Source of the DNA: Virgibacillus doumboii
Lineage (GTDB): Bacteria > Bacillota > Bacilli > Bacillales > Amphibacillaceae
Length of the DNA stretch: 64,000 bases
Direction: 5' to 3'
Assembly (NCBI RefSeq): GCF_902806455.1
Contig: NZ_CADCWQ010000001.1
Coordinates: forward strand, 1,488,001 to 1,552,000
The notes beneath the pieces were generated by a model. That model searched no databases, was not told the DNA's origin, and saw only the letters and a program-made list of their open reading frames with translations. The position numbers and the translations under genes are program-made. Every line of letters begins with the position of its first letter. Position 1 is the stretch's first letter. Below, one piece after another: positions 21,408-52,438 of the stretch.

Positions 21408-21708
21408 AAGAGGCTGGGACAAGACAAAAACGATAACAGAAGAGACGACTTATACACAAATTAAGCGTAGGGAATATACGCAGACTCCTGTGGGAGGAAA
21501 GGCCTAGGTGAGACTCCGCAGCGCGGTAGCGCAAGGAGGCTCAACAGCCGCCCACGGCTAAAAAGACACTGCGAAAACGCACTTTTTGAGCAGATGTCGC
21601 CTTGGTACCCGGAGGTGTGAAAGCAAAGTATATTTCCGGAGCGGTTGTTTTGCACCTTTTTTCAATGTGTTCTGTTCCTTTTGATAAAAAACTTTTGTCC
21701 CAGCCCCC
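21408..21708. repeat. Mosaic interspersed repeat R3 (frame type II, with hairpin module)
   Basis: About 301 bp between dnaJ and prmA. The outer arms are GAGGCTGGGACA (21410-21421) and TTTTGTCCCAGCC (21694-21706). The core runs from GGGAATATACGC to GTATATTTCCGGAGCGG. The hairpin module is inserted at 21558-21620, between CCGCCCACGG and AAAGC. Unlike R7, the 3' arm is followed by C residues, not T residues, so it should not terminate transcription into prmA. Confidence 0.88.
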
Positions 21709-21753
21709 CATACATATATGATGTCACTTTTTCCTGGAAGTGGGTGGATTTTA

Positions 21754-22710
21754 TTGAAATGGTCGGAACTCTGTATCCATACGACAAATGAAGCTATTGA
21801 ACCTATCTCCAATATTTTGCATGAAACGGGTGCCAGCGGGGTCGTTATTGAGGACCCATTGGATCTGGTTCAGGAAAGAGATACTTTTTTTGGTGAGGTA
21901 TATGAACTGAATCCCGAAGAATATCCGGAAGAGGGAGTTTATATTAAAGCTTATTTAAAAGTAAACAGCTTTTTGGGTGAAACGGTTAACGAAATCAAAC
22001 AGGCCATTAATAATTTAATGCTTTATGATATAGATTTAGGAAGAAATCAGATAACACTCAGTGAGGTACATGAAGAAGAGTGGGCTACAGCATGGAAAAA
22101 ATATTATAAGCCTGTTAAAATATCTAAAAAGATTACAATTACCCCCACTTGGGAAGACTACACACCAGTTTCAAGTGATGAGTTAATTATTGAACTCGAT
22201 CCCGGGATGGCATTTGGTACCGGTACACACCCGACAACTGTTTTGAGTATTCAGGCTTTGGAACAATACTTGAAAGAGAACGATACGGTTATAGACGTAG
22301 GGTGCGGATCAGGGGTCTTAAGTATTGCTTCTGTTTTACTTGGAGCAGAACAGGTGCATGCCTTTGACCTTGATGATGTTGCGGTTAAAAGCACTAAAAT
22401 TAACAGTAAACTAAACAAAATCAATCAACAAATCGCAGTTAAACAAAATAATCTGCTGAATCAAGTAGACATGAAAGCGGATGTAATTGTTTCTAATATA
22501 CTTGCTGAGATTATAGTCCGATTTGTAAAGGATGCCTGGAATAACCTGAAATCAGATGGTTTGTTTATTACTTCAGGTATTATCCGTGCAAAAAAACAAA
22601 TGGTAATCGATGAACTTGAGAAAAATGGTTTTCAAATACTTGAAATGAACGAAATGGAAGATTGGGTAGCCATAATAGCTAAAAAGATTTCCCAGGAAAG
22701 TGGTGCTTGA
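21754..22710 (+). CDS. prmA: Ribosomal protein L11 methyltransferase
   Basis: Methylates lysines of ribosomal protein L11. The 318-aa protein starts MKWSELCIHTTNEAIEPISN, the family N-terminus. It has DPGMAFGTGTHPTT, motif I DVGCGSGVLS and the catalytic-site NILAEI. TTG 21754 follows GGTGG (21744-21748); the ATG at 21718 lies in frame upstream but has no ribosome-binding site and abuts repeat R3. prmA-rsmE-mtaB follow dnaJ as in B. subtilis. Confidence 0.94.
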   Translation: MKWSELCIHTTNEAIEPISNILHETGASGVVIEDPLDLVQERDTFFGEVYELNPEEYPEEGVYIKAYLKVNSFLGETVNEIKQAINNLMLYDIDLGRNQITLSEVHEEEWATAWKKYYKPVKISKKITITPTWEDYTPVSSDELIIELDPGMAFGTGTHPTTVLSIQALEQYLKENDTVIDVGCGSGVLSIASVLLGAEQVHAFDLDDVAVKSTKINSKLNKINQQIAVKQNNLLNQVDMKADVIVSNILAEIIVRFVKDAWNNLKSDGLFITSGIIRAKKQMVIDELEKNGFQILEMNEMEDWVAIIAKKISQESGA

Positions 22711-22711
22711 T

Positions 22712-23467
22712 TTGCAACGCTATTTTATCCCTGCTGATAATTGGTTAGATGAACAAGTTGTCATTACTGGTAATGATACACACCATATCAGTCACGTTAT
22801 GCGATTTCAGGCTGGAAATAAAATAATTTGTAATCATCCTGAAGGAAAGGCAGCAATATGTGAGATTACACTGCTGAACAATGATGAGATACATGCCGTT
22901 GTTAAGGATTGGCTGGATGAATCGAATGAACTGCCGGTCAGCGTTACCATTGCTCAGGGATTACCCAAGAGTGACAAACTTGAATTAGTTCTGCAGAAAG
23001 GTACAGAGCTGGGTGCTGCTGCATTTATTCCTGTACAGGCAGAGCGGTCTGTAGTCGTCTGGGACGGCAAAAAGGAAGAAAAGAAGCTGGTGCGTTTTTC
23101 AAAAATAGTTAAAGAAGCAAGTGAGCAAAGTCATCGAAATAAAATCCCGCAAATCAGCCAGGTAGTTTCGACGGAGAAATTGATAGAGGAAAGTTCGGAA
23201 TACGATGTGAAGCTTTTTGCTTATGAGGAAGAAGCTAAAACAATTGATTTTCAATCTTTTGGTACGATAATAAGTAAATTGGAAACTGGTAATCGGGTAT
23301 TGGTTTGTATTGGTCCAGAGGGTGGTTTTTCAGATAATGAAGCAACACTGTTAAAGGAAAATGGATTTTTTTCAGTACGATTGGGTCCTCGGATATTACG
23401 AACGGAGACCGCTGCTTTATATGTTTTAGCAAGTATTTCATATCAATTTGAAGAATTGGGGTGCTGA
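22712..23467 (+). CDS. rsmE: 16S rRNA m3U1498 methyltransferase RsmE
   Basis: SPOUT-fold enzyme that methylates U1498 of 16S rRNA. It is 251 aa from TTG 22712, giving MQRYFIPADNW, the usual start. The C-terminal knot is clear in GPEGGFSDNE and LGPRILRTETAALYVL. The start is a choice: GTG codons at 22700 and 22703 are in frame but crowd AGGAAAG (22694-22700). Depending on that choice it overlaps prmA by up to 11 bp. Confidence 0.92.
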   Translation: MQRYFIPADNWLDEQVVITGNDTHHISHVMRFQAGNKIICNHPEGKAAICEITLLNNDEIHAVVKDWLDESNELPVSVTIAQGLPKSDKLELVLQKGTELGAAAFIPVQAERSVVVWDGKKEEKKLVRFSKIVKEASEQSHRNKIPQISQVVSTEKLIEESSEYDVKLFAYEEEAKTIDFQSFGTIISKLETGNRVLVCIGPEGGFSDNEATLLKENGFFSVRLGPRILRTETAALYVLASISYQFEELGC

Positions 23468-23469
23468 TA

Positions 23470-24813
23470 ATGACAACCGTGGCTTTTCATACGTTAGGGT
23501 GTAAAGTGAATCATTATGAAACAGAAGGCATATGGAATATGTTTAAGGATAATGGTTATGAACGGGTCGATTTTAATCGTGAAGCAGATGTATATGTAAT
23601 TAATACGTGTACAGTGACTAATACCGGGGATAAAAAAAGCAGACAAGTTATCAGAAGAGCTGTCCGTAAAAACCCTGAGGCTGTCGTTTGTGTAACCGGC
23701 TGCTATGCTCAGACATCACCGGGTGAAATTATGGAAATTCCCGGTGTTGATGTAATTGTCGGGACGCAGAACAGAAAAAAGATGATTGACTACATTGAAG
23801 AACATCAAAAAACGCGTGAACCGATTAATGGTGTAACAAATATTATGAAGAATCGTGTGTTTGAAGAGATGGATGTACCGGAGTTTACAGACAGAACGCG
23901 TGCTTCTTTGAAAATACAGGAAGGATGTAACAACTTCTGTACATTTTGCATTATCCCATGGTCAAGAGGCTTACTCCGTTCAAGAGATCCGGAAAATGTA
24001 GTGGAACAGGCACAAAAGCTGGTTGATGCAGGTTATAAAGAAATTGTCTTAACCGGAATACACACCGCCGGTTATGGGGAAGACATGAATGATTACAACT
24101 TTGCAAAACTGCTTAGAGAATTGGAAACAAATGTTGATGGATTGAAGCGAATTCGCATCTCCTCCATCGAGGCAAGTCAGATTACTGATGAAGTAATCGA
24201 CGTACTTGATAAATCTGAAAAAATTGTACGTCATTTACACGTACCACTTCAATCAGGTTCCGATTCTGTATTAAAACGGATGCGCAGAAAGTATTCCAGT
24301 GAATTTTATAAGCAAAAGGTGGAAAAAATTCGTAAGGCTCTACCTGGACTGGCGATAACGTCTGACGTAATTGTTGGTTTCCCTGGTGAAACTGATGAAG
24401 AATTTATGGAGACATACAACTTTATAAAGGAAGTGGGATATTCAGAATTGCATGTTTTCCCATTCTCAAGACGGACTGGTACACCGGCAGCACGCATGAA
24501 TAATCAGGTGGATGAAGATGTTAAAAATGAACGTGTTAATCAAATGATAGAGCTATCGGACCAATTAGCTAAAGAGTATGCTTCTGACTATGAAAATGAA
24601 GTATTGGAAGTAATACCGGAGGAACGCGTGTCTGAAGAAAACACTGATATGCTTGTAGGTTATACAGACAATTACCTGAAAGTCAGATTCAATGGACCAA
24701 AAGATTTAATTGGAAAACTGGTTCGTGTAAAAATTACAAAATCCGGTTATCCATATAATGAAGGTACGTTTGTACGTGTAATGGATGATGCTGCTTTGAA
24801 TGCCACATCCTGA
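23470..24813 (+). CDS. mtaB: tRNA methylthiotransferase MtaB
   Basis: Converts t6A37 to ms2t6A37 in tRNAs reading ANN codons. The 447-aa protein has the N-terminal cluster cysteines Cys11, Cys47 and one of the CVTGCYAQ pair (74/78), the radical SAM motif Cys153-x3-Cys157-x2-Cys160 (CNNFCTFC), and a C-terminal TRAM domain. MTTVAFHTLGCKVNHYETEG is the typical MtaB start. ATG 23470 follows TGGGGTG. It ends the operon at a strong terminator. Confidence 0.96.
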   Translation: MTTVAFHTLGCKVNHYETEGIWNMFKDNGYERVDFNREADVYVINTCTVTNTGDKKSRQVIRRAVRKNPEAVVCVTGCYAQTSPGEIMEIPGVDVIVGTQNRKKMIDYIEEHQKTREPINGVTNIMKNRVFEEMDVPEFTDRTRASLKIQEGCNNFCTFCIIPWSRGLLRSRDPENVVEQAQKLVDAGYKEIVLTGIHTAGYGEDMNDYNFAKLLRELETNVDGLKRIRISSIEASQITDEVIDVLDKSEKIVRHLHVPLQSGSDSVLKRMRRKYSSEFYKQKVEKIRKALPGLAITSDVIVGFPGETDEEFMETYNFIKEVGYSELHVFPFSRRTGTPAARMNNQVDEDVKNERVNQMIELSDQLAKEYASDYENEVLEVIPEERVSEENTDMLVGYTDNYLKVRFNGPKDLIGKLVRVKITKSGYPYNEGTFVRVMDDAALNATS

Positions 24814-24839
24814 ATCCCGGAACAACTCCGGGATTTTTA
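24813..24839 (+). terminator. Terminator after mtaB
   Basis: AATCCCGGA (24813-24821) and TCCGGGATT (24827-24835) form a 9-bp stem followed by TTTTAT. The arms start in the stop codon of mtaB. Confidence 0.9.
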
Positions 24840-24921
24840 TCTGTGAAGCAGGATGCAATTTGAAAAACAGCATGATATGATAGGGAAGAGGTACGGACAA
24901 CATAATGAAAGGGAGATAGTA

Positions 24922-25593
24922 ATGAGCAAAGACCTTGCAAAGTATATTGACCACACACAATTAAAACCTGAGACAACAAAGGAAAAAATAGAACAAATTG
25001 TTGCAGAAGCAAAAGAACATGGTTTTGCTTCAGTATGCGTGAATCCTTTTTGGGTACCTTATTGCTATAGCGAATTAAAAGATACGGAAGTAAAGGTTTG
25101 TACGGTAATTGGATTCCCACTCGGTGCTACATCCACTGAGACAAAAAAATTCGAGACAAAGCAAGCAATTCAAGATGGTGCAACAGAGGTTGATATGGTA
25201 ATTAATATCGGTGCTCTTAAGTCCGATGATGATGAAACAGTTAAACGTGATATTGAAGCTGTTGTTGAAACTGCAAAAGGAAATGCTCTTACGAAGGTAA
25301 TAATTGAAACTTCATTATTATCGGATGATGAAAAAGCACGTGCCTGTAAACTTGTAAAAGAAACAGGTGCAGACTTCGTAAAAACGTCCACAGGTTTTTC
25401 CGGTGGCGGTGCGACGATAGAGGATGTTAAGTTAATGCGTCAAACTGTTGGTGATAAGATGGGTGTTAAAGCTTCTGGCGGTGTCCGTGATCTGGAGACC
25501 ACAAAAGCAATGATTGACGCTGGAGCAACCCGCATAGGCGCAAGTGCCGGAGTAGATATAATTGCCGGTAACAAGGGACAAGAGGATTATTAA
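24922..25593 (+). CDS. deoC: Deoxyribose-phosphate aldolase
   Basis: Cleaves 2-deoxyribose-5-phosphate to acetaldehyde and glyceraldehyde-3-phosphate in deoxynucleoside breakdown. The 223-aa class I aldolase has the Schiff-base Lys154 in VKTSTGF and the second catalytic Lys183 in [13 protein letters not shown] 24922 follows AAGGGAGA; an in-frame ATG at 24853 adds 23 residues without homology. In B. subtilis deoC (dra) is elsewhere with nupC-pdp, so its place here between mtaB and rpsU is a local difference. Confidence 0.96.
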
Positions 25594-26133
25594 AGACTCA
25601 TCTCGTAAATTTAACTTCGTAGTTGATATAAACTGCGAACTAAACCTATTTAGTAATAAGTTAGTAAGGCTCACTGACTACCGCAGCTGGAATATACTCG
25701 CTTTCACACCTCCGGGTACCAAGGCGACATCTGCTCAAAAAGTTCGTTTTCGCAGTGTCTTCTTAGCCGTGGGCAAGCGCCGAGCCTCCTCAGCTCGTTC
25801 CTCGCTTCCGAGTCTCGCCTAGCTTGTTCTTCCCACAGGAGTCTCGCATATTCCAGCTGCTGGTTTACAGGATTAAATCTATTCCGTTACTAAAAATTAT
25901 TGATTTATCAAGATAAAGTGAGCAGAACCCAGCGGAGGAAATACGCTGAGACTCCTGGGGGAGGACAGGCATCGGTGAGACCACTGAGTGCGCCAGCACG
26001 AAGAGGGCTCACCAGCCGCCCCCGGAAAGCGAAGTGTATTTCCGCAACGGTATCATAGCACTCAACTTTTTTCAAAGTAGTTCACAGTCTATGGATTTTG
26101 TATCAAATACAACAATCTATACGAAAATAGCTT
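25594..26133. repeat. Mosaic interspersed repeat R4 (frame type I, long form)
   Basis: About 540 bp filling most of the gap between deoC and rpsU. The left end resembles the GTTGATATAAACTGCGA type. The right end (about 26098-26133) reads TTTTGTATCAAATACAACAA then TCTATACGAAAATAGC, the complement of the left end of R5, R6 and R8. It contains a first core with the hairpin module at 25704-25766, an A/T-rich middle and a second core from CAGCGGAGGAAATACGC to TATTTCCGCAACGG. The second core is the CCTGGGGGA / GCCCCCGG subtype, matched by CTCACC. Confidence 0.88.
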
Positions 26134-26277
26134 TATTAAATAAATAGCCCGATAGTTATGGAAAACTAAATTTTAAGTTGACCTGCAAGTAGGGTTATAT
26201 TATAATTATCAAAGACATGTAAAGTTATACATGTTTGTACATTTTTTGTTTTGTGCTTCGGAGGGAGGGAAATTAGT

Positions 26278-26454
26278 ATGTCAAATACAACTCGCGTTCG
26301 TAAAAACGAGTCTCTTGAGGATGCTCTTCGTCGCTTTAAACGTAGTGTGTCAAAAAGCGGTACACTGCAGGAATACCGTAAGCGTGAACACTATGAAAAA
26401 CCTAGCGTTCGTCGTAAGAAAAAGTCGGAGGCGGCAAGAAAGCGTAAATACTAA
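26278..26454 (+). CDS. rpsU: Ribosomal protein S21
   Basis: The 58-aa protein reads [20 protein letters not shown] at its start and ends [12 protein letters not shown]. It is the small basic S21 at the 30S platform near the anti-Shine-Dalgarno region. ATG 26278 follows GGAGGGAGGG. Two other frames across it are open but encode nothing recognisable. It precedes yqeY by 15 bp, the widespread rpsU-yqeY pair. Confidence 0.98.
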
Positions 26455-26469
26455 AGAGGGTGCAAGAGC

Positions 26470-26916
26470 ATGACATTGATGGAACAGCTGAATCAGGATA
26501 TGAAGCTGGCTATGAAAAATAAGGATAAAGAAACACTTGGTGTTATCCGGATGGTCAAGTCTTCATTACAAAATGAAACGATAAAACTTGGCAATAAGGA
26601 ACTCTCTGAAGATGAAGAATTAACAGTTTTGTCAAAAGAGTTAAAGCAAAGAAAAGATTCCCTCCAGGAATTTAAATCAGCTGGACGCGATGATCTTGTT
26701 AAAAAATTAGAAACTGAAATCAATATTTTGCAGAAATATATGCCGGAACAGTTCACGGAAGATGAGCTGGAGGCACTAGTTCAGTCTACGATTCAGGAAG
26801 TTAATGCAACTTCCAAAAAAGATATGGGTAATGTTATGAGTGCAATCATGCCAAAAGTTAAAGGTAAGGCTGATGGTGCACAAATTAACAAACTTGTTCT
26901 TAAACATTTAAATTAA
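26470..26916 (+). CDS. yqeY: GatB/YqeY domain protein
   Basis: A 148-aa helical protein matching the tail domain of GatB. It begins [20 protein letters not shown] and includes [17 protein letters not shown] and [13 protein letters not shown]. The domain is thought to hold tRNA in amidotransferases, but the role of the free protein is not settled. GAGGGTGCAAG precedes the ATG. The hairpin at 26934-26957 ends the rpsU-yqeY unit. Confidence 0.93.
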
Positions 26917-26933
26917 CTCAAAAGTGTTTCTCT

Positions 26934-26960
26934 GGCCTTGTCAATTTAGACAAGGCCTTT
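26934..26960 (+). terminator. Terminator after yqeY
   Basis: GGCCTTGTC (26934-26942) and GACAAGGCC (26949-26957) form a perfect 9-bp stem, followed by TTT. Confidence 0.85.
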
Positions 26961-27099
26961 ATAAATTCTTTTTTTAGATGAAGTATATCATCATTACCGC
27001 TCGTTGTGGTACTATTTAACTAACAGGGATAAAATGAAACCATTTACATAGTTAAAACGTATAACTAAATGTCAGCTAAACAGGGAGGAGGGATGTTAT

Positions 27100-28437
27100 T
27101 TGTCTGGTAGCAGATACAGCCGGTACATAAAATATGCACTCATATTTATAACAATGGTCTCATTGTTTATTACTGCAGTTCCATTTATCGACGCTGATAA
27201 CAGTGGTGATGGAGAACTTGTATATGTTATTCCGATCGAAAATGAGGTTGAGCGTGGACTGGAAGCGTTTCTTTCCCGAACAACCGGAGAAGCAGAGTCT
27301 GAGGGTGCGGATCACATAATATTTGAAATTGATACCCCGGGTGGCGGAGTGGAAGCAGCAGGACAAATAGCGGAACTGTTACAGAGCCTGGATACAACCA
27401 CAACATCCTTTATTGTTAACAGGGCATTGTCAGCTGGATCTTATATAGCATTAAACACAGACAATATTTACATGAAACCCCAGGCAACGATGGGAGCCAG
27501 CGGAGTCATCAATCAGGACGGTACTGCTGCCAGCAAAAAAGCTCAATCAGCATGGTTGGAAGCAATGCGAAGTGCCGCTGAATCAAAAGGCAGAGATCCT
27601 TTATATGCGGCTGCGATGGCAGATTCAAGTATAGATCTTTCCGAATATGGAGCTGAAGAGGGAAAGTTTTTGACATTGGGACCATCATCGGCTGTTGAAG
27701 TTGGTTATTCGGACGGTACTGTTGAGGACCGAACAGGGTTATTAAGTGAATTAGGATTAACAAATGCAACTATCGTAGAAAAGGAAATGACATTTTCTGA
27801 AAGAGTCGCCCGGTTCATTACAAATCCTGTGGTGGTTCCAATATTATTATCCATCGCAAGTCTCGGCCTGATAGTGGAGTTGTATTCACCTGGTTTTGGG
27901 GTCCCTGGAATTATGGGAATCGTTTCGTTAATTCTATTTTTCTATGGTCATGTTGTTGCAGGTCTCGCTGGTTCTGAAGCTATCATATTATTAATACTTG
28001 GTATAGTACTGATTATAGCTGAGTTTTTTGTCCCTGGGGGAATCGTCGGTATACTCGGTATTGGTGCAATAGTTGGATCGCTCATTATGTCTGGTCAGGA
28101 TATCGGCCATATGTCGATGAGTATAGGGATTGCCTTTATTGTAGCAATAATTGCTTCTGTTATTTTATTTAAGACGATGGGGCTGGAAAAAGGGTTCTTC
28201 CGGCATATTATTTTGAAGGATCAGACAACGACTGAACTTGGTTATGTCTCATCTGTAAACAGGTTGGAATTAATCGGACTGGAAGGAAAGACTCTAACCC
28301 CATTACGTCCGTCAGGGACAGCTGAACTGGATGGCGAGCGCCTCGATGTTATATCTGAAGGAGGATTTATTCTGGCAAATGAACAAGTAAAAGTTGTTAA
28401 AGTAGAAGGAGCTCGTATTGTAGTTCGAGAATTATAA
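27100..28437 (+). CDS. yqeZ: YqeZ: membrane NfeD-family protein with serine-protease-like domain
   Basis: A 445-aa membrane protein. It has an N-terminal signal or anchor segment (about 10-30), a ClpP/SppA-like domain (about 35-225) with FEIDTPGGGVEAAGQIA and RALSAGSYIALNTD (candidate Ser nucleophile), four or five membrane segments (about 240-360) and a C-terminal OB-fold NfeD domain ending VKVEGARIVVREL. It is paired with flotillin floA, 19 bp downstream, as in B. subtilis, where yqeZ-floA-yqfB belong to the sigma-W envelope-stress response. The start is TTG 27100 after GGAGGAGGG. Confidence 0.93.
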   Translation: MSGSRYSRYIKYALIFITMVSLFITAVPFIDADNSGDGELVYVIPIENEVERGLEAFLSRTTGEAESEGADHIIFEIDTPGGGVEAAGQIAELLQSLDTTTTSFIVNRALSAGSYIALNTDNIYMKPQATMGASGVINQDGTAASKKAQSAWLEAMRSAAESKGRDPLYAAAMADSSIDLSEYGAEEGKFLTLGPSSAVEVGYSDGTVEDRTGLLSELGLTNATIVEKEMTFSERVARFITNPVVVPILLSIASLGLIVELYSPGFGVPGIMGIVSLILFFYGHVVAGLAGSEAIILLILGIVLIIAEFFVPGGIVGILGIGAIVGSLIMSGQDIGHMSMSIGIAFIVAIIASVILFKTMGLEKGFFRHIILKDQTTTELGYVSSVNRLELIGLEGKTLTPLRPSGTAELDGERLDVISEGGFILANEQVKVVKVEGARIVVREL

Positions 28438-28456
28438 CTAATTAGGAGGAATTTTA

Positions 28457-29455: not shown

Positions 29456-29482
29456 TGTATCAGCCTATAAAGGAGGGTTATG

Positions 29483-30059: not shown

Positions 30060-30062
30060 TTG

Positions 30063-35668: not shown

Positions 35669-35689
35669 TATTGGCTGGTTTTTATAAAA

Positions 35690-36300
35690 GGCTGTTTTCG
35701 TATAGATTGTTGTTTTTAATACAAAAGATATAAAATGTGCATTAACCGCCGCGATTGATTTCCGCTGCGGGCAGTCGCTTTCACACCTCCGGGTACCAAG
35801 GCGACATCTGCTCAAAAAGTTCGTTTTCGCAGTGTCTTCTTAGCCGCGGGCAACGCTTCAGCCTCCCCGGAAGAAAACCATTTCCTGCGGGGTCTTCAGC
35901 CGTTGGGACTGCGATTACTCGCCCCACCGAAAACCTTTTGCTTTTCCCGCAGGAGTCGACTGCCCTCCGCTCCAATCAAACGCTGTTGTTATTTTATAAT
36001 CTAAATTTGCCTTTTGCCTATGATAACAGCTAGTGCAGTGTTATTCATCTAACCCAGCGGAGGAAATACATGCCCCTGCATCAGGGGTATGCCGACGTTG
36101 GCCGACAAGGCCGATTTTAGTCGGCCTTCCTTCTTACGGGAGCAAAGGCCTAGGTGAGACTCGCAGTGCGACTAGCACGGAGAGGCTCATCAGCCGCCCA
36201 CGGAAAGCGAAGAGTATTTCCGCAGCGGGCGGACTAACACTATATAAAGTTACGTCGCAATTTGTATCTACTACGAGGTAAAATTTGCGAAATGCGCCTT
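35690..36300. repeat. Mosaic interspersed repeat R5 (frame type I, long form)
   Basis: About 611 bp, almost the same length, order and orientation as R1. Left end GGCTGTTTTCGTATAGATTG (35690). First core from TTCCGCTGCGGGCAGTCG to CGACTGCCCTCCGCTCC, with the hairpin module at 35781-35843. Second core from CCCAGCGGAGGAAATAC to TATTTCCGCAGCGG. The right end has GTTACGTCGCAA near 36249. It occupies the dgkA-era interval, where cdd stands in B. subtilis. The second core closely matches the reverse complement of R2. Confidence 0.9.
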
Positions 36301-36471
36301 ATAAAAAGACAGATCGCTGGTATTTATTTGGGTAAGTATCTGACATAGTAATTGTCGAATCATGCGGAATGAGAAAAACTTTTTAAAGGTTTTGTCATAT
36401 GCATATGAAACTGATTACATTTTATAGTATGATATAAATTAAATAGAAATAACTTCTGCGGAGGATACAAC

Positions 36472-38447: not shown

Positions 38448-38471
38448 TTGTACATATTTTATAAGCAATTG

Positions 38472-38676
38472 AAATGCAATGATGGAGAATAGTACTTATT
38501 GATTTGCTGTTTGCAGCGAGTCCGGGCTGGTGGAAGCCGGATAATGGCACAGTAGGGAATGGCGCTCCTGAGCACGAAAGTATAAAGTGGCTCTTTACAA
38601 AAAGAGCAAGTAGGGTGGAACCGCGGAATACAACCCGTCCCTATGTCAGTTAAATGGCATAGGGACGGGTTTTTAT
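38472..38676 (+). promoter_or_regulatory. Glycine T-box leader with terminator/antiterminator
   Basis: T-box riboswitch that reads uncharged tRNA-Gly. Stem I begins with GGAG near 38482 and closes with CTCC at 38565-38568. The specifier loop contains GAATGGC with the GGC glycine codon at 38561-38563. The T-box AGGGTGGAACCGCG is at 38612-38625, whose TGGAA pairs with the tRNA acceptor end. The terminator stem ACCCGTCCCTATG / CATAGGGACGGGT (38633-38645 and 38658-38670) is followed by TTTTTA. It controls glyQ and glyS. Confidence 0.96.
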
Positions 38677-43259: not shown

Positions 43260-43524
43260 GGCTGTTTTTGTAAGGATTGTTGTTTTTGACACAATAAATA
43301 TATAATGCGACGTAACTTTTAAAAAAAAGAGTGAGTGCTGTAACACCGCTGCGGAAATACACTTCGCTTTCCGTGGGCGGCTGCCCGGCCCTCTTCGTGC
43401 TTACGCACTCAGTGGTCTCACCTAGGCCTTTCCTCCCACAGGAGTCTCAGCGCATTTCCTCCGCTAAAATTGCTTGATATATCCCGATAGTTCGCATTAT
43501 ATATCAACAACGAGGGTAAAAAGC
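43260..43524. repeat. Mosaic interspersed repeat R6 (frame type I, short form)
   Basis: About 265 bp. Left end GGCTGTTTTTGTAAGGATTG (43260), then TATATAATGCGACGTAAC. One core only, inverted relative to R7: from ACCGCTGCGGAAATACACTT to GCGCATTTCCTCCGC, of the CCTGTGGGA / GCCCACGG subtype. The hairpin module is missing. The right end is GTTCGCATTATATATCAAC. It lies between ppsR and dnaG. Confidence 0.86.
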
Positions 43525-43846
43525 AAAAAAATTTACAATTCAGCCACATTTTTCACTGGTAAATTTAAAAACTTTGTATTATAATTATTTTTTGTGTGAA
43601 AATTATATAATAAGTGTGTATAGAGGACGAGATGAGATATTCAGAATAATAAAACATTGGAAAATAAGAAGGAATCCCGATCAACTATGTAGAATTAAAG
43701 ATTATGAGAGGTACAATATTACAACTGGTTTATACAAAATCCTTCTAAGTCAGCAAACATTCTGGAAGGAAATTTTTTTCGACTTTCCAAAAAATATTGT
43801 CGAATTTTGCAGGGTTTTCTTAACTCGTATCGAATTACATTAAAAC
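43525..43846 (+). promoter_or_regulatory. Leader region before dnaG with possible attenuator
   Basis: A/T-rich, without a convincing gene. TATAAT at 43580-43585 may be a -10. A hairpin TCCTTC / GAAGGA (near 43741-43772) is followed by AAATTTTTTT. AGAAGGA near 43668 can pair with the TCCTTCT arm and would compete with it. GAGGACGAG precedes a five-codon reading frame near 43632. The 89-codon frame open across the region has no ribosome-binding site. Confidence 0.3.
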
Positions 43847-43858: not shown

Positions 43859-45673
43859 ATGCCAATTCAAATACCTGAAGAAGTAATTGAAGATGTACGT
43901 AAATCCAATGATATTGTTGATGTTATCGGAGAATACGTACAATTGAAAAAGCAGGGACGGAATTACTTTGGGCTTTGTCCGTTTCATGGTGAAAAATCTC
44001 CTTCTTTCTCAGTTACACAAGAGAAACAAATATTTCATTGTTTTGGTTGTGGCAAAGGCGGGAATATAATTACGTTTATTATGGAGATGGAAGAACATTC
44101 CTTTCATGAAGCGTTAAAACTTCTGGCCGATCGGGGCGGAGTAAAATTACCTGAAACCGGACAAGGAAAAGAGTCATCGATGTCCCGGGAAAATCAGAGT
44201 ATCCTTTCAGCCTATGAATGGGTTACAAAGCTATATCACCACCTGCTGCGATACACAAAAGACGGGAAAGAAGGCTATCAATACTTTAAAGACCGAGGAA
44301 TAAATGATGAAACAATTGATGTTTTCCAGCTGGGTTTTGCACCAAAAATAAAGGATTTTACAGCAGCGTTTCTGGAGAAAAAGGGATTTCATCAGCAAAT
44401 TTCGGTAAAAGCCGGTTTACTTTCTTCGCATGAGGATAATAGTGTTACAGACAGGTTTAGAGGAAGAGTCATTTTCCCGATCCGAAACCACTTAGGAAAA
44501 ACAGTAGGATTTGGCGGTCGTACAATAGGTGACCTGGAACCCAAATATTTGAACAGTCCGGAAAGTGAGCTGTTTCAAAAGGGACGATTGTTATATAATT
44601 TTGACTTGGCCAAAAAACATATCCGCAAAGAAAACGAAGTGGTGTTGTTTGAGGGATATATGGATGTCATATCTGCGTATCAGGCTGGTGTGAAAAATGT
44701 AGTTGCAACCCTTGGAACTTCACTTACCGAAAGCCAGGCGAAATTGTTAAGAAGATATGTCGATACGGTTATCCTTTGCTACGATGCAGACAAAGCGGGG
44801 ATTGAAGCAACCTATAAAGCCGCTGTTATACTGCGAAAGGCAGGCTGTTATGTTAAAATCGCAAATCTTCAGGACGATATGGACCCTGATAACTATATCA
44901 GAGAATATGGTTCAACAGCATTTCAGGATAAAGTCATAAAAGCAAGCAATACATTTATGAGCTTTTATATGCGTTACCTGAAAAAAGATTATAATTTAAG
45001 TCTTGAAGGAGATCGCATACAGTATATAGAAACAATCCTTAAAGAACTGGCGAAGATTGACAGCTCCGTTGAGAGGGAATATTACCTGAAAGAGCTCAGT
45101 AATGAATACAGTTTATCAATGGAATCATTAACACAGGAAATTCAGTCACATCGGCAAAAGATGGGTACTGACAAGGATAAGAGAGAAAAGAACAGATATA
45201 CTAATAGGGCATCACAGTTTAAACAGTCAAAAAAGTTACTGCCAGCTTTTCATAATGCAGAAAGACAGCTTATTGCACATATGTTGCAAGACATTGCCAT
45301 TACTGGTAAAGTGCAGGAGGAAATAGGTGCATCGTTTAATATCGATGAACATAAAATAATTGTTACACATTTATTTGCATATTATGAAGAAGGCCATCAG
45401 GCTGATATCAGTATGTTCATTGAAATGCTTAATGATGCTAAGCTCAGGCAAATCGTTACAGAGATTGCAATGATTCCTGTTCATGAAAATATCAGTGACA
45501 GGGAAATCAATGATTATATACGAATGATTCGTGCTGAAAACAGCAATAAAGATAGTATCCAGTCTCTTAAAGAAGAGCAGAGGTTAGCCGAGCAGCAAAA
45601 TGATCCCATAAAAGCTGCCAGAATAGGTATGAAAATCATTGAATTGCAGAAGCAATTAAAGAACACAAATTGA
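43859..45673 (+). CDS. dnaG: DNA primase
   Basis: Synthesises RNA primers at the replication fork. The 604-aa protein has the N-terminal CHC2 zinc finger (CPFHGEKSPSFSV and FHCFGCGKGG), the RNA polymerase core with TOPRIM motif LFEGYMDVISA and CYDADKAG, and a C-terminal helicase-binding region with NAERQLIAHML. ATG 43859 gives MPIQIPEEVIEDVRKS after GGTGG; ATG 43847 in frame adds four residues. It heads the dnaG-sigA operon. Confidence 0.97.
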   Translation: MPIQIPEEVIEDVRKSNDIVDVIGEYVQLKKQGRNYFGLCPFHGEKSPSFSVTQEKQIFHCFGCGKGGNIITFIMEMEEHSFHEALKLLADRGGVKLPETGQGKESSMSRENQSILSAYEWVTKLYHHLLRYTKDGKEGYQYFKDRGINDETIDVFQLGFAPKIKDFTAAFLEKKGFHQQISVKAGLLSSHEDNSVTDRFRGRVIFPIRNHLGKTVGFGGRTIGDLEPKYLNSPESELFQKGRLLYNFDLAKKHIRKENEVVLFEGYMDVISAYQAGVKNVVATLGTSLTESQAKLLRRYVDTVILCYDADKAGIEATYKAAVILRKAGCYVKIANLQDDMDPDNYIREYGSTAFQDKVIKASNTFMSFYMRYLKKDYNLSLEGDRIQYIETILKELAKIDSSVEREYYLKELSNEYSLSMESLTQEIQSHRQKMGTDKDKREKNRYTNRASQFKQSKKLLPAFHNAERQLIAHMLQDIAITGKVQEEIGASFNIDEHKIIVTHLFAYYEEGHQADISMFIEMLNDAKLRQIVTEIAMIPVHENISDREINDYIRMIRAENSNKDSIQSLKEEQRLAEQQNDPIKAARIGMKIIELQKQLKNTN

Positions 45674-45703
45674 AATTGAATGTTGTTGGAAGGAGGGGGA
45701 CTC

Positions 45704-46825
45704 ATGGCCGAAAATAAGCCTTCACAAACAAAAGAAAATGAAAATGAGCTTACACTGGATCAGGCAAAGGATCAACTGCTTGAGCTGGGAAAGAAGCGCG
45801 GCGTATTGGCTTATGAAGAAGTAGCTGATCGGTTATCCAGCTTTGAAATTGAATCCGATCAGATGGATGAATTTTATGAGTACCTAACAGAACAAGGTGT
45901 AGAAGTAATTGGTGATTCAGAAGAAGATCCCAAGATGCAGCAAATTGCAAAAGAAGAAGAATTTGACTTAAATGATTTAAGTGTACCACTCGGTATAAAA
46001 ATAAATGATCCAGTCCGGATGTATTTAAAAGAAATAGGCAGAGTGGATTTGTTATCGGCGGCAGAGGAAATCGATCTTGCACACCGAATTGAAGATGGCG
46101 AGGAAGAAGCCAAGAGGCGACTGGCAGAAGCGAACTTACGACTTGTTGTAAGTATTGCCAAACGCTATGTTGGTCGTGGAATGCTGTTCCTTGACTTGAT
46201 TCAGGAAGGAAATATGGGACTTATTAAAGCGGTGGAAAAATTTGATTACCGTAAAGGATTTAAATTCAGCACGTATGCAACATGGTGGATTCGCCAGGCA
46301 ATAACAAGAGCAATTGCCGATCAGGCGCGTACAATCCGTATACCTGTTCATATGGTTGAAACAATTAATAAGCTAATCCGTGTACAGCGTCAGTTATTAC
46401 AGGACTTGGGAAGAGAACCTACACCTGAAGAAATCGGGAAAGAGATGGAACTCTCACCGGACAAGGTTAGGGATATTTTGAAAATTGCTCAGGAACCAGT
46501 ATCACTGGAAACGCCTATCGGAGAGGAAGACGATTCCCATTTAGGTGATTTTATTGAAGATCAGGAAGCAGTTTCTCCATCTGATCATGCAGCGTATGAG
46601 TTGTTAAAAGAACAACTTGAAGATGTCCTTGATACCCTTACCGACCGGGAGGAAAATGTGTTGAGACTCCGGTTCGGACTTGATGATGGCCGGACAAGGA
46701 CATTGGAAGAGGTTGGAAAGGTATTTGGAGTAACCAGGGAGCGAATTCGCCAAATAGAGGCAAAAGCATTAAGGAAATTAAGACATCCTAGTCGCAGTAA
46801 ACGATTAAAAGATTTCCTTGAATAA
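45704..46825 (+). CDS. sigA: Primary sigma factor SigA (RpoD)
   Basis: Housekeeping sigma-70. The 373-aa protein has region 1.1 (30-80), region 1.2, region 2 with [20 protein letters not shown] and [20 protein letters not shown] (-10 recognition), region 3, and region 4 with [20 protein letters not shown] (-35 recognition). ATG 45704 follows GGAAGGAGGGGG. It is 30 bp after dnaG, the macromolecular-synthesis operon. Confidence 0.99.
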
Positions 46826-46926
46826 AATCGTTTCAGTCATTGAGTACTTACGTTGTGCACAATGGCTGTCCAATGAAATAAACTTAAACCTGGCCATGGG
46901 TTTTGGACTGCATCGGGGTGACTTCT

Positions 46927-47481
46927 ATGTCAGAAAATCGAATTTCTACAATTATTGAGGAAATCAATTATTGGAAAGAACATAAATTACTACCTGATGT
47001 TTACTGTGATTTTCTTTTGGCATTGTATACGAATGGTGAGGCTTCCGCTGAAGAGGCCACCGCAAAGAGCGGGATGAATTTTATTCATGTAGTTCAGCAT
47101 ATCCTGTTAGTCTCACTGTTGCCTTTTTCTTTTTTAGTCGTTTATTTTACGGAATTTCATGTTCTGCTAATAATAAGTATTTTATTGCTTTTTGTGATAT
47201 TTTCTTTTTGGATGTTTCGAAATAATAAACGAGACAGTTTAACTTATCACTTGTCACTGGCAACAATCCTTATGCTGATTTTATTAATGTCAGTATATGT
47301 CGCTGCAAATAGCAATGTCAGCCAGTGGTTTCTGCAGTTGCTGGTGTTTTGCAATTTTATACTCTGGTATTACTTTGGTTACAAAAATAGAATAAAATAT
47401 CTTAAAATTGTTAGTGTAATTGGTATACTGTTTGTTATCTTATATATAATGTTACAAAAATTTCACATCTTATCACTTTAA
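46927..47481 (+). CDS. Membrane protein of unknown function downstream of sigA
   Basis: A 184-aa protein with a soluble N-terminal 50 residues (IIEEINYWKEHKLLPDVYCD, LLALYTNGE) and four or five membrane segments after about residue 55 (LLVSLLPFSFLVVYF, LLIISILLLFVIF, LATILMLILLMSVYV, two more to the C-terminus). The N-terminal sequence is reminiscent of conserved Bacillaceae proteins at this locus, but I cannot assign a family. ATG 46927 follows GGGGTGA. No function is proposed. Confidence 0.75.
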   Translation: MSENRISTIIEEINYWKEHKLLPDVYCDFLLALYTNGEASAEEATAKSGMNFIHVVQHILLVSLLPFSFLVVYFTEFHVLLIISILLLFVIFSFWMFRNNKRDSLTYHLSLATILMLILLMSVYVAANSNVSQWFLQLLVFCNFILWYYFGYKNRIKYLKIVSVIGILFVILYIMLQKFHILSL

Positions 47482-47561
47482 AGATACTATGTTTTCGAGT
47501 AAAATAAATATAGCTTTTATATCACAATAAAATAAGGGGATTACATAAAGGAGGTACCACG

Positions 47562-47963
47562 ATGAGTAAAAATGCGGTTGTTCCTTATGCAATTGTTGCA
47601 GTGGTAGGGATACTGTTAGTGATTGTTATGTCAGTGGTAGGTTTAAACCAGCAAGAGGCAATTCAGAATCAAGAACAAAACGGTGGTGAGAAACAGGAGC
47701 AATCAGGTGAATCAGGAGGAGGAGAAACAGCTTCTACTGATGCCGCGAAAATATATGAAAACACTTGTGCATCTTGTCATGGAGCTGATTTGTCCGGTGC
47801 AGTAGGTCCTGCTCTGAACAAAGTAGGCAGCAAGTATGATAAAGCAGAAATTAAGGAAATTATTAAAACCGGTTTCCCTGATGCACAACCACCAATGCCA
47901 GGCGGATTAGTTCAGGGTGCAGAAGCTGATGCTCTTGCACAATGGCTATCAGAGAAGAAGTAA
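47562..47963 (+). CDS. cccA: Membrane-anchored cytochrome c-550
   Basis: A 133-aa cytochrome c with an N-terminal membrane anchor (about 6-29), a Gln/Glu/Gly-rich linker (30-60) and a class I heme domain: the heme-attachment motif CASCH in NTCASCHGADLSG and the axial Met in PPMPGG. It faces the outside and carries electrons toward cytochrome oxidase. AAGGAGGT precedes the ATG. The place after sigA matches cccA of B. subtilis. Confidence 0.95.
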   Translation: MSKNAVVPYAIVAVVGILLVIVMSVVGLNQQEAIQNQEQNGGEKQEQSGESGGGETASTDAAKIYENTCASCHGADLSGAVGPALNKVGSKYDKAEIKEIIKTGFPDAQPPMPGGLVQGAEADALAQWLSEKK

Positions 47964-47991
47964 TCAGATATACTTAATAGTTAATCACACG

Positions 47992-48036
47992 AAAAAGAGT
48001 AAGCTTAACTGTCATACAGCAGGCTTACTCTTTTAT
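47992..48036 (+). terminator. Terminator after cccA
   Basis: AAAAGAGTAAGC (47993-48004) and GCTTACTCTTTT (48023-48034) form a perfect 12-bp stem. Its T-rich arm serves as the tail. Confidence 0.8.
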
Positions 48037-48063
48037 GCTATGAAGAGGGAGTTAACTAGAAAG

Positions 48064-48804
48064 ATGACAGCAAATAACAACTCGATTAATCTATCAACGC
48101 GCCTGCAAAAAGTTGCAGCTTTTTTGCCAAATGGAGCCAATTTTGCTGATATCGGTTCAGATCATGCTTATCTGCCATGCTATGTATGTTTACAGGACCA
48201 GACAGCTCATGCCATAGCCGGTGAAGTAAATGAAGGTCCTTATTACAGTGCACTAGAGACAGTGGAGAGATATATGTTTGCCAAAAGAATAGAGGTTAGA
48301 TTGGGTAATGGATTATCTGTCCTGCAAAAAGATGAAGTAAATCAGGTTGTAATTGCAGGTATGGGAGGTGCGCTTATCAGGACTATTCTTGACGAAGGAA
48401 AGCAATCCCTGGACACTGTACAGCGTATTATTGCACAGCCGAATATTGATGAGCGAAGTGTGCGATACTGGTTTTATGAAAATGGTTATACGATTTCCAA
48501 TGAGGCGATACTGGAAGAAAACGGACATATTTATGAAATTATTGTTGCAGACAGGAAAGCCGACGGAAGTCAGTACATACCGGACTTATTTGAAAAGCAG
48601 CTCTTATTTGGGCCAATTTTATTGAATGAGAAATCAGATATTTTTATTCAGAAATGGAAACACGAACGAAATAAGCGGCGCAGAGTACTCGATGAGATGA
48701 AAAAAGCAACTGAAAAAGACAAACAGAAAATCAGCGCTTTTGAAAAGGAATTATTGTGGATAGAGGAGGTTTTAGGTGATGACAACAGTAATCCAAAATC
48801 GTGA
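48064..48804 (+). CDS. trmK: tRNA (adenine-22-N1)-methyltransferase TrmK
   Basis: Makes m1A22 in tRNA. The 246-aa protein has ADIGSDHAYLPCY (SAM motif I), AGEVNEGP, VIAGMGGALI (with the catalytic-loop glycines) and QPNIDERSVRYW, followed by a C-terminal coiled coil. ATG 48064 gives the family start with STRLQKVAAFLPNG; AGAGGGAG lies 14 bp upstream, rather far. It overlaps yqfO by 26 bp. trmK-yqfO is a conserved pair. Confidence 0.93.
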   Translation: MTANNNSINLSTRLQKVAAFLPNGANFADIGSDHAYLPCYVCLQDQTAHAIAGEVNEGPYYSALETVERYMFAKRIEVRLGNGLSVLQKDEVNQVVIAGMGGALIRTILDEGKQSLDTVQRIIAQPNIDERSVRYWFYENGYTISNEAILEENGHIYEIIVADRKADGSQYIPDLFEKQLLFGPILLNEKSDIFIQKWKHERNKRRRVLDEMKKATEKDKQKISAFEKELLWIEEVLGDDNSNPKS

Positions 48805-49894
48805 TATTTTTCGAGCGATGGAAAAATGGGCTCCACAGCATTTGGCTTATGACTGGGATAATGTCGGGCTGCAGGTTGGCTCATTTCAGAATGAAGTAAA
48901 AAAGGTCATGGTTACACTTGATGTATTGGAAACTGTCGTTGATGAGGCAATTGAAAACGATGTTGACCTGATCATTGCGCATCATCCATTATTATTTAAG
49001 TCGATGAAGCAGGTGAATGTTGATTCACCACAGGGAAACATTATCCAAAAATTAATACAGCATAATATCTCTGTTTATGCTGCCCACACCAACCTGGATA
49101 TTGCTGCAGGCGGCGTGAATGATATGTTATGTGATTTATTAGGTGTACAAGATAAAGAAGTGCTTCTAAACAGCCGAACAGAGAAGCTGGTGAAAATTGC
49201 CGTATTTGTACCTGAATCTCATGCGGATGAAGTACGTAACGCCTTAAGTGAAAAGGGGGCCGGACATATTGGTAATTACAGTCACTGCACGTTTCAATCG
49301 GATGGCCAAGGAACATTTAAGCCTCTTGAAGGAACAAATCCGTATATTGGCTCACAGGAAAAATTGGAATTTGTCGATGAAGTTAAAATAGAAACCATTC
49401 TGCCTGAAAATAAACTATCACAGGTTGTTGATGCTATGATTGCCGCACATCCATACGAGGAACCTGCTTATGATATTTACCCGATGGAAAATAACGGACA
49501 AACGTACGGTATAGGACGTATTGGTACATTAAATAAAAATATGACCTTAAAACAGCTGGGTGAACATGTAAAAAAGACACTTAATGTTCCAAATCTGCGA
49601 ATTACAGGTGACTTGTCAAAGGATGTTAAAAAGGTTGCTATTTTGGGTGGAAGTGGAGAAAAGTATATTCATGCAGTTAAACAAATGGGTGCAGATGTAT
49701 ATATTACAGGCGATATGACCTTCCATACAGCACAGGATGCATGGCAAATGGGATTGTCGGTTATTGATCCTGGACATCATGTTGAAAAAGTAATGAAAGA
49801 TGCTGTGAAAAAATACTTGGACAGTTTTTTTGCCGACGAACAGATAGAAGTTACTGTATCACATTCCAATACAGAACCATTTCGGTTTATTTGA
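48779..49894 (+). CDS. yqfO: Nif3-like dinuclear metal protein YqfO
   Basis: A 371-aa Nif3/YqfO family protein. The two halves of the Nif3 domain (about 1-125 and 240-371) hold the metal ligands: AHHPLLFKS (His pair), AAHTNLDIA, GHHVEK and an internal GGSGEKYIH. A CutA/PII-like insert (about 130-230) lies between them. Its function is unsettled; members bind two metals and have been called GTP cyclohydrolase-like. ATG 48779 follows GAGGAGG and overlaps trmK. Confidence 0.93.
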   Translation: MTTVIQNRDIFRAMEKWAPQHLAYDWDNVGLQVGSFQNEVKKVMVTLDVLETVVDEAIENDVDLIIAHHPLLFKSMKQVNVDSPQGNIIQKLIQHNISVYAAHTNLDIAAGGVNDMLCDLLGVQDKEVLLNSRTEKLVKIAVFVPESHADEVRNALSEKGAGHIGNYSHCTFQSDGQGTFKPLEGTNPYIGSQEKLEFVDEVKIETILPENKLSQVVDAMIAAHPYEEPAYDIYPMENNGQTYGIGRIGTLNKNMTLKQLGEHVKKTLNVPNLRITGDLSKDVKKVAILGGSGEKYIHAVKQMGADVYITGDMTFHTAQDAWQMGLSVIDPGHHVEKVMKDAVKKYLDSFFADEQIEVTVSHSNTEPFRFI

Positions 49895-49966
49895 TGCAAG
49901 AGTAACCATTCTGAATTATAATAGAGAAAGTCAAGTCCGCGCAACACCGAAAAGGAGCAATACAGC

Positions 49967-51283
49967 ATGGAATACAAATTTAATCAGTTTCAGTTTCAGC
50001 CTGAACTCAGTGATGTTATCGACCAATTGGCGTTTAGAAAACCGTCAGAAATACAACAGAAAGTAATACCTGCAATTTTGAAGGGGACAAGCGTAATTGG
50101 TCAGTCCCATACAGGGTCAGGAAAAACGCACGCATATTTATTGCCATTGTTTAATCAAATCGATTCAAGCAAACGTGAAGTACAGTTCGTTATTACTGCA
50201 CCTACTCGTGAACTGGCCATGCAAATCCATGAAGAGGTCAGAAAAATAATCCATTACGCAGGGAAAGAACAAATATGGATTGCCAAATTGCTTGTTGGCG
50301 GAACAGACAAACAAAAGATGATGGAAAAATTGAAGGAACCGCCACATATCATTGTTGGTACTCCAGGCAGAATTCTGGACATGGTTAAAGAAGAAGCCAT
50401 TTCCATTTATTCTGCTGCATCTTTTGTTATCGATGAGGCTGATCTAATGCTTGATCTTGGGTTTATTAATGATGTCGATCAATTGCTTGTACGCGCCAAA
50501 AAAGATGTACAGCTGCTGGTTTTTTCAGCCACCATTCCACAACGTCTGGAACACTTTTTCAGGAAGTATCTGGAGAACCCTTTACATGTTAAAATTGATG
50601 ACAAGCTTTCGCCGGAGAAGATGGAACATCGATTAGTTCCTTTAAAACACCGAAATGCTTCGGATATTATTATGGATATATCAAAAACGATCCATCCATA
50701 TCTTGCCATTATTTTTACAAACGGTAAGGATAATGCCAATGAGCTGGAAGGTTTACTCCAACAAAAAGGTCTTAACGTCGGCCTCATTCACGGAGGGTTA
50801 AAGCCCAGAGAAAGAAAACGTGTATTAAAAGATATACAAAACCTCAGATATCAATATATAATCGCTACGGATCTTGCATCAAGGGGAATTGATATTAAAG
50901 GGGTAAGCCATGTCATCAACGCTCAGCTTCCTAAAGAAGAAGATTTTTATATTCATCGTGTAGGAAGAACCGCACGTGCCGGAATGGAAGGTACAGCAAT
51001 CAGCCTATATGACGAACAAGATATCAAGCTGATAGACAAGCTGGAACAGAAAGGTTTAACATTCACATTTTACGATATAAAAAATGGTGAATGGAAAGAG
51101 TCAAAAGCCTGGAATGAGCGTGGATTACGTACAAAAAAAACAACTGATGTCGATGCCGAGGCATGGAAACACGTCAGAAAAGCCAAAAAAGTTAAACCAG
51201 GCTACAAAAAGAAAATGAAAAAGCAAAAAGATCAAATAAAAAAGCAGATGCTAAAGAAAACAAAAAACAAACGAAATAAATAG
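49967..51283 (+). CDS. cshB: DEAD-box RNA helicase CshB
   Basis: A 438-aa ATP-dependent RNA helicase linked to cold-shock and ribosome assembly. Motifs: Q motif [13 protein letters not shown], Walker [23 protein letters not shown] (VIDEADLML), SAT (FSATIPQ), [10 protein letters not shown] and [10 protein letters not shown]. The last 60 residues are very lysine-rich, as in CshB. AAAGGAGC precedes the ATG. It is followed 11 bp later by nfo. Confidence 0.95.
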
Positions 51284-51294
51284 GGGTGGAGACA

Positions 51295-52188
51295 TTGTTA
51301 AAAATTGGATCACACGTTTCGATGAGCGGGAAGAAAATGCTGTTAGGTTCCAGTGAGGAAGCTGTTTCTTATGGTTCCAATACATTTATGATTTATACCG
51401 GCGCACCGCAGAACACACGCAGAAAGCCGATAGAAGAGCTGAATATTGAAGCTGGTCAGGACCACATGCAGGAAAATGGAATTGATGACATTGTTGTTCA
51501 TGCTCCATATATAATCAATATTGGGAACACAGTGAAACCCGAAACATTTGAATTGGGAGTAAACTTTTTACGGAATGAAATTGACCGTACGGCTGCAATT
51601 GGTGCAAAACAAATCGTCCTGCATCCGGGTGCACATGTCGGAGCCGGTGCAGATAAAGGAATTGAACGAATTATTGAAGGCCTGAATGAGGTGCTTGAAA
51701 AGGATAAAGATGTTCAAATAGCACTGGAAACAATGGCAGGTAAAGGATCTGAGATTGGACGCACGTTTGATGAATTAGCTAAAATTTTTGACAGAGTTAC
51801 ACATAATGAAAAATTGTCCGTTTGCCTTGATACATGTCACATCCATGATGCGGGGTACAATGTTGTAAATGATTTTGATGGGGTTCTGGACGAATTTGAC
51901 AAAATTATCGGTGTTGACCGTCTGAAGGTAATTCATGTTAATGACAGTAAAAATGAACGAGGAGCCCATAAAGACCGTCATGAAAATATCGGATTTGGGC
52001 ATATTGGTTTTGATGCATTGCATTATGTAATTACACATCCGCAACTGGAACATTTACCAAAAATATTGGAAACTCCTTATGTGGGTGAAGATAAGAAAAA
52101 TAAAAAGCCTCCATATAAATTTGAAATTGAAATGATCAAAAATGGATCATTTATTACGGATTTAAAAGAAGAAATTGTAAACCAATAA
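51295..52188 (+). CDS. nfo: Endonuclease IV
   Basis: AP endonuclease that cuts abasic sites in base-excision repair; also spore DNA repair in B. subtilis. The 297-aa TIM barrel starts [16 protein letters not shown] and has zinc ligands in [41 protein letters not shown] and [12 protein letters not shown] 51295 follows AGGGGTGG; the GTG at 51286 lies within that site. Repeat R7 begins 5 bp after its stop codon. Confidence 0.97.
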
Positions 52189-52192
52189 GGAG

Positions 52193-52438
52193 AAGAGGCT
52201 GGGACATAACAAAATAGTGTTGCGCAAAAGACGAACAATGTATGGAAGCAGCGGAGGGAATATACGTAGACTCCTGGGGGAGGAAAGGCATCGGTGAGAC
52301 TACGAAGTGCGTTAGCGCTTCGGAGGCTCACCAGCCGCCCCCGGAAAGCGAAGTATATTCCCGGAGCGGTTTCATACACCATTTCCACTATGTTCGGTTT
52401 CTGTTTTTGATAAAACACTTTTGTCCCAGTCTCTTTTA
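52193..52438. repeat. Mosaic interspersed repeat R7 (frame type II, short form)
   Basis: About 246 bp between nfo and convergent yqfT. Outer arms AGAGGCTGGGACA (52194-52206) and TGTCCCAGTCTCT (52422-52434), followed by TTTATTT, so this copy should terminate nfo transcription. The single core runs from AGCGGAGGGAATATAC to GTATATTCCCGGAGCGG. It is the CCTGGGGGA / GCCCCCGG, GGTGAG / CTCACC subtype, with an 8-bp tip CGAAGTGC / GCGCTTCG. It lacks the hairpin module. Confidence 0.88.

Follow-up and report, generated by a model that had tools for sequence, protein, structure and literature searches.

The stretch analysed here, 64,000 nucleotides of the Virgibacillus doumboii genome (contig NZ_CADCWQ010000001.1, positions 1,488,001 to 1,552,000; referred to as the window), carries repeats in eight of its intergenic gaps, each of which holds at least one core of about 120 nt. 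The genes around them include deoC, rpsU, era, ppsR and dnaG, all named by family match, while the gene before era has no family match. Nine core matches were found in the window at E<1e-8 and four weaker ones besides. The core folds as a single long interrupted hairpin, composed of an outer stem P1, a core stem P2, a stem P3 and a tip, and in many genera its stems have been preserved by compensatory changes. Our explanation, which as a whole we favour by a narrow measure, is that the repeats are non-autonomous mobile elements carrying one or two structured RNA-like domains, which would fold as RNA.

Repeats of the window and their fold

The layout of the core is AGCGGAGG-[P1]-GACTCCTGNGGGA ... 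GAGAC-[tip]-GAGG-GGCTC ... CCCNCGGAAAGCG-[P1']. Its motif CCTGKGGGA occurs seven times in the window against 0.40 expected, and six of the seven are repeat cores; the seventh, at 28033, is inside an open reading frame (ORF) with no repeat there. A second, divergent core is present upstream in the elements 8782-9391, 25700-26050, 35690-36298 and 62243-62836, the upstream core at 62435 being matched by the model only in part and appearing longer by eye. In three cores (9204, 12696 and 36117) the 5' arm is rebuilt.

A sequence-only reading of this DNA had proposed that paired base changes between the copies are a sign that the fold matters. With its R numbering inferred from copy order, its core-stem sequences are right: the cores at 21462, 43346 and 62628 read CCTGTGGGA with GCCCACGG, and those at 25929 and 52248 read CCTGGGGGA with GCCCCCGG. 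The outer stem GGAAATA/TATTTCC given for several copies needs correction at 43346 (R6), whose 5' outer arm is GGAAATG, as does the tip of 52248 (R7), where GTGC/GCGC includes a T-G pair. The interval 21480..52380 assigned to the whole series was too narrow, as copies R1, R2 and R8 fall outside it.

Compensatory change in the stems

The structure was set manually and checked against single-sequence folds, a first RNAalifold consensus having missed P3. An own-genome alignment of 37 rows, from which copies carrying a module or a rebuilt arm were left out together with some near-identical ones, served to build the covariance model R1. In these 37 copies the variable core pair is U-A in 21, C-G in 8, G-C in 8 and broken in none, and 89.0% of the paired cells are complementary against 83.3% after shuffling and at most 44.8% with the partners slid. 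A set of 64 sequences from many genera (64 of 83 remaining candidates, five window copies with a rebuilt arm or module being left out) gave 91.8%, where shuffling left 71.6% and sliding the partners no more than 47.5%, with double changes at 24 of the 27 structure pairs, and a covariation score of 0.459 versus 0.141. A third set of 121 sequences was aligned by MAFFT with no structure supplied, after 24 overlapping, mostly antisense, rows of 112 model matches had been dropped; here the core pair is C-G in 67, T-A in 37, G-C in 14 and C-A in 3. Judged by their sequence, the three rebuilt-arm window copies have C-A.

A many-copy covariation test like the one that the sequence-only reading had proposed was run with a script of our own resembling R-scape (G statistic, background correction, null simulated on a FastTree tree), and every significant pair lay within the proposed stems. 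For the 121 sequences, with 60 simulations, three column pairs had E<0.05 over all pairs, all three in the structure, and structure pairs made up 14 of the top 20 among 6903 column pairs. For the 64 sequences eight column pairs were significant, all eight in the stems; when the test was limited to the 27 structure pairs, 16 passed, whereas the 150 simulations gave 0.09 on average and never more than 2. The claim that the paired changes point to a fold that matters is thus upheld on both sets.

As 61 of the 64 sequences in this alignment had been fetched with model R1, which favours copies that pair and so leans to its own structure, a control free of both model and alignment was made on 115 loci fetched by a sequence pattern not touching P1 (121 pattern matches; 26 without a recognisable 3' motif within 260 nt; 89 distinct kept). 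In the best 9-nt window, P1 arms of one and the same element form 7.19 Watson-Crick pairs, compared with 5.41 when arms are swapped between elements (sd 0.09, maximum 5.65, 300 permutations). That the fold is under selection we regard as highly probable.

Two kinds of interruption were seen beside this pattern. The same hairpin-rich insert (GCCCCTGCATCAGGGG...GGCCGATTTTAGTCGGCC; about 9165-9240, 12780-12860 and 36075-36145) rebuilds the 5' arm of the three window copies and breaks the core pair. A module of 64-70 nt (AGAAGACACTGCG...GGTACCC; e.g. about 21557-21620 and 25700-25770 of the window) sits at one core junction, between CCCNCGG and AAAGCG, in 41 of 45 distinct own-genome contexts. It was not seen (up to 10 mismatches of 50) in the loci of other genomes, which had mostly been chosen as full-length matches, and it may be an optional structural domain.

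Table 1. Repeat elements, cores and target-site duplications in the window
Feature	Position	Strand	Remark
IS1595-type miniature inverted-repeat transposable element (MITE), two divergent cores, GGCTGTTTTCG ends	8782..9391	+	R1/R2 matches, ends read directly
Core with 64-nt module	8956-9074	-	E 1.7e-5; within 8782..9391
Core with rebuilt 5' arm	9204-9326	+	within 8782..9391
Core with rebuilt 5' arm	12696..12997	-	no clear outer ends seen
Short match to second core	12951-12997	+	within 12696..12997
G-class element, one core, GAGGCTGGGACA...GTCCCAGCC ends	21410..21707	+	298 nt (locus L248)
Core containing 64-nt module	21462-21640		within 21410..21707
Core (CCTGTGGGA/GCCCACGG) with 64-nt module	25700..25863	-	divergent partner of 25929 core
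Core, G-C type (CCTGGGGGA/GCCCCCGG)	25929..26050	+	between deoC and rpsU
Left target-site duplication TTATAAAA of era element	35682..35689		read directly
IS1595-type MITE, two divergent cores	35690..36298	+	upstream of era
Core of era element	35862-35973	-	E 9.6e-5
Core of era element	36117-36228	+	
Right target-site duplication TTATAAAA of era element	36299..36306		read directly
IS1595-type MITE, one core (43346-43467)	43260..43545	-	between ppsR and dnaG; 286 nt (L251)
G-class element, one core (52248-52369), G-C type	52195..52433	+	239 nt (L072)
IS1595-type MITE, two divergent cores	62243..62836	+	594 nt (L090)
Core of 62243..62836	about 62334-62545	-	partial model match
Core of 62243..62836	62628-62749	+	

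Distribution, carriers and gene context

In the 3.9-Mb genome of the strain model R1 gives at least 145 core matches at E<=0.001, a lower bound as the best 150 of 1017 candidates were scored. These make up 120 clusters, 95 of them with a single core, 24 with two divergent cores and one convergent; some partner cores were missed, since three matches to the Rfam family tsr24 (see below) lie within 100 nt of cores called single. Once frames mostly inside the element are set aside, 6 of the 120 clusters overlap an ORF of at least 80 aa. Matches are present in at least 71 of 80 sampled genomes (own included, at most 44 candidates scored per genome), which belong to 26 of 33 sampled families. Thirty of the matching genomes were chosen for a further scan and each gave matches anew, at least 119 in the richest of them. 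An even sample of the phylum (398 genomes, model R2, best 8 candidates per genome scored) has at least four matching genomes, namely the own one, two others from its order and a fourth from its class. Among the matches listed, core records are named for Oceanobacillus, Neobacillus, Peribacillus, Sporosarcina, Ureibacillus, Scopulibacillus and others; the six named genera we take to be Bacillales. A record titled Arthrobacter beigongshangensis (L356:4562-4674) has a core at 92.9 bits, which may be due to contamination or transfer, and in another genome (L134:1314-1417) a SAM riboswitch is found beside a pair of cores.

Two end types flank the cores in the own genome. In the G class, described from 28 elements with the ends doubtful in a few, the core is preceded by GAGGCTGGGACA at 52-53 nt and followed by TGTCCCAGCCTC at about 64 nt, or more where the module is present. 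The ends of the T class are GGCTGTTTTCG. A plasmid search with the T end returned 251 records, mostly short matches in unrelated genera, and four were examined: in two (L466 4002-5304 and L469 4003-5562) the T ends bound a broken transposase gene, and in the other two (H18 and H3) no transposase gene was present beside the T end. The transposase piece of L469 matches NF033547 at 106.6 bits (cut-off 75) and that of L466 the IS1/IS1595 zinc domain at 44 bits (cut-off 28); neither of these two IS1595-type copies has a core at E<=0.1. The 8-mers flanking 42 T-end pairs, of which some lack a core, match on average at 5.76 of 8 positions against 3.21 (sd 0.20) when permuted, with the identity peaking at width 8 and 18 of the 42 pairs matching at 7 or more positions. 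Since the IS1595 family has both these T ends and 8-bp target duplications, the T class is best read as IS1595-type MITEs, an assignment we make with confidence. Like those MITEs, the elements have GGCTGTTTTCG... terminal repeats, 8-bp target-site duplications and no transposase seen; they differ in carrying a conserved structured core, missing from both IS1595-type copies examined, and in that the same core also sits between GAGGCTGGGACA ends.

For the G-class ends a plasmid search gave 11 records, mostly short matches; an IS1182-type element is a candidate carrier. An ISL3 origin was dropped because the single ISL3 transposase match in the genome (L213, own genome C1 around 1630182-1630883) is flanked by ends of another kind, GTCTTCGGAATATATAGTGGA in inverted orientation; a second ORF adjoins it. 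A search with the core found two plasmid records and no phage records, longer or other queries giving 15 and 5 plasmid records. No transposase or linked protein partner was seen among the ORFs adjoining the 120 clusters; when these ORFs were clustered by BLAST and inspected by eye, with no family search made, the families present in at least three loci were repeat-derived frames and ABC transporters.

Comparison with related genomes adds to the picture of elements which, judged by their sequences, look mobile. The two closest sister species are without the insert (no R1 match) between deoC and rpsU, at the junction before era and between ppsR and dnaG. The era insert can be aligned cleanly at its left side, and the alignments at the deoC-rpsU and ppsR-dnaG junctions are rougher. 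Among 11 other genomes of the genus model R1 found no core at the rpsU or era junctions; at dnaG three of the 11 have cores of their own (L190, L197 and, weakly, L198).

By crude ORF calls the neighbours of the clusters are co-directional in 80 cases, convergent in 33 and divergent in 7, compared with 207, 55 and 43 for all neighbours in the same loci; the convergent to divergent ratio differs from that background (p=0.003). This would fit elements that are mainly transcription terminators or gene boundaries, and the ends of the G class do form a hairpin, directly followed by TTT in 13 of 28 elements. However, avoidance of promoters is expected of any insertion, and a terminator has no need of a covarying core with several helices and invariant letters, so that we consider this explanation improbable. 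The counts suggest that insertions in promoter regions are selected against and that the elements have no strong orientation in cis.

RNA, single-stranded DNA and the relation to tsr24

The sequence-only reading had left open whether the fold matters as RNA or as single-stranded DNA. Within the core G-U cells outnumber A-C cells 119 to 52, or about 53 to 26 when events are inferred (p=0.003). The terminal inverted repeats, expected to act as double-stranded DNA, served as a control, and their G-U to A-C counts are 73:64 in 37 T-class elements and 24:24 in 41 G-class elements; core and terminal repeats differ with p=0.001 by cells, which are non-independent, and p=0.03 for events against cells. 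The G-U excess in the core and its absence from the terminal repeats favour folding of the sense strand, probably as RNA; as sense-strand single-stranded DNA would also tolerate G-T pairs, the excess itself does not separate the two. Further, A23, C24, A34, A99 and G101 beside P2 are invariant in the 64 sequences, and GACT, A34 and AAAGCG adjoining P2 are near-invariant, compared with an average identity of 60% in the P1 columns.

The same asymmetry bears on a mutational origin of the compensatory changes, by which template switching or hairpin repair between the palindrome arms would restore complementarity. Two G-class elements folded whole do give long fold-backs, and the shifts of the core pair between T-A, G-C and C-G need two substitutions, with the mismatched state present in only 3 of 121 sequences. 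Arm-to-arm repair nevertheless predicts equal G-U and A-C, as found in the terminal repeats and not in the core, and it would not keep the letters beside P2 invariant across genera; we think it most improbable.

More weight belongs to the view that the fold is needed as single-stranded DNA, the core hairpin being extruded in replication or transposition and recognised by a transposase or host enzyme. The elements look mobile, the G-class cores keep a fixed register relative to the ends, there is no clear strand preference relative to genes, and G-T pairs would be tolerated. Yet both transposase-bearing IS1595-type copies examined are without a core and cores are found between ends of quite another kind as well, so that the core is no general requirement for transposition, and a plain hairpin needs no invariant letters beside P2. 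This view we hold to be unlikely, if less so than the preceding one or a role as terminator. That the domain functions as RNA is the best reading of the sequence comparisons, and a reasonably probable one.

At gathering cut-offs Rfam (ribozymes, riboswitches and leaders included) has no match over any repeat of the window. With permissive limits tsr24 (RF02577) matches cores 11 times in 10 of 16 loci, with E from 0.012 to 2.8. In the own genome 33 of the 41 tsr24 matches at E<=10 fall on R1 cores, all on the same strand, the cores being 0.44% of the genome, and three of the remaining eight abut cores; such matches were found in 5 of 14 control genomes, none above cut-off. Tsr24 shares GACUCCUG-GGGAG ... 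CCC-GGAAAGCGAAG with the core, and in its consensus CCUGAGGG ... CCCUAGG the variable core pair is A-U, which adds a fourth pair type. On this likeness the core is probably a distant homologue of the Staphylococcus aureus tsr24, not a member by the rule of Rfam. The name tsr24 reportedly comes from Carroll et al. 2016. In Rfam the family is a small RNA of S. aureus, whereas the domain described here is mobile and occurs at high copy number in many genera. For Tsr25 the same origin of the name is given in PMC11257911.

Several observations weigh against the RNA reading and the relationship to tsr24. The best tsr24 match has 28.9 bits in the 16 loci and 27.4 in the own genome, where the gathering cut-off is 50, and unrelated families reach similar E-values in the permissive search of those loci, so that single tsr24 hits mean little. 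The terminal-repeat control is noisy, 261 of its 1073 T-class cells being other mismatches. Over the whole element unpaired columns are 70% conserved and paired ones 72%, and single-sequence folds pair some of the invariant letters (G22-C102, C24-G101 and U25-A100), pairs which hardly vary and are therefore untestable by covariation. Of the 7 order-level genomes listed in the phylum sample 3 match, own included, with the best 8 candidates scored in each. Single cores between co-directional genes are 36 in the same sense and 25 in the opposite (p=0.20), and the lack of a clear strand preference is a poor fit to a simple cis-acting mRNA element.

Under the explanation preferred here, an IS1595 transposase would act in trans on the T-class ends and the domain would be transcribed from a neighbouring promoter or its own. 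The fold of the sense strand could then present a conserved bulged helix to a host protein or processing enzyme, by which the element would gain a stable, tolerated transcript, either a small RNA or an mRNA 3' structure, as the likely relative tsr24 suggests. A wider proposal, which we make only tentatively and with more doubt than belief, is that of a functional Bacillales RNA domain, with a conserved protein-binding core of its own, adopted by at least two unrelated transposon-end systems, reaching more than 100 copies per genome at most, with tsr24 as a member of this dispersed network. Small mobile repeats are usually viewed as passive palindromes; here the interior too is under structural constraint across genera, and this constrained interior is common to two kinds of transposon ends. 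If it acts as RNA, it offers a testable answer to the persistence of such repeats at high copy number and would place a staphylococcal small RNA in a large family. The covariation-supported model can be used to annotate many intergenic regions.

No description of this repeat family was found in the literature, literal core words included, in a coverage mostly outside subscription journals that leaves absence unproven. PMC2267715 lists bcr1, Bant-1 and Bhal-1 as multi-copy Bacillus repeats able to fold, and a title cited there attributes mobile-element characteristics to bcr1. The repeats described here resemble them, by that description, in being multi-copy and able to fold; identity with Bhal-1 of B. 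halodurans is possible.

Other features of the window include a T-box leader, matched at gathering level, at 38470-38645, which ends at the ORF starting at 38643. In the tRNA cluster a second repeat (TGCGAGGAGTGC...GCAACACGACGAGCA) is present at 57058-57311, and by eye it resembles the tip-loop insert of some cores (L041, L042, L050 and L051). It is followed by a tandem array at 57503-57817 with a period of 21 nt and about fifteen units.

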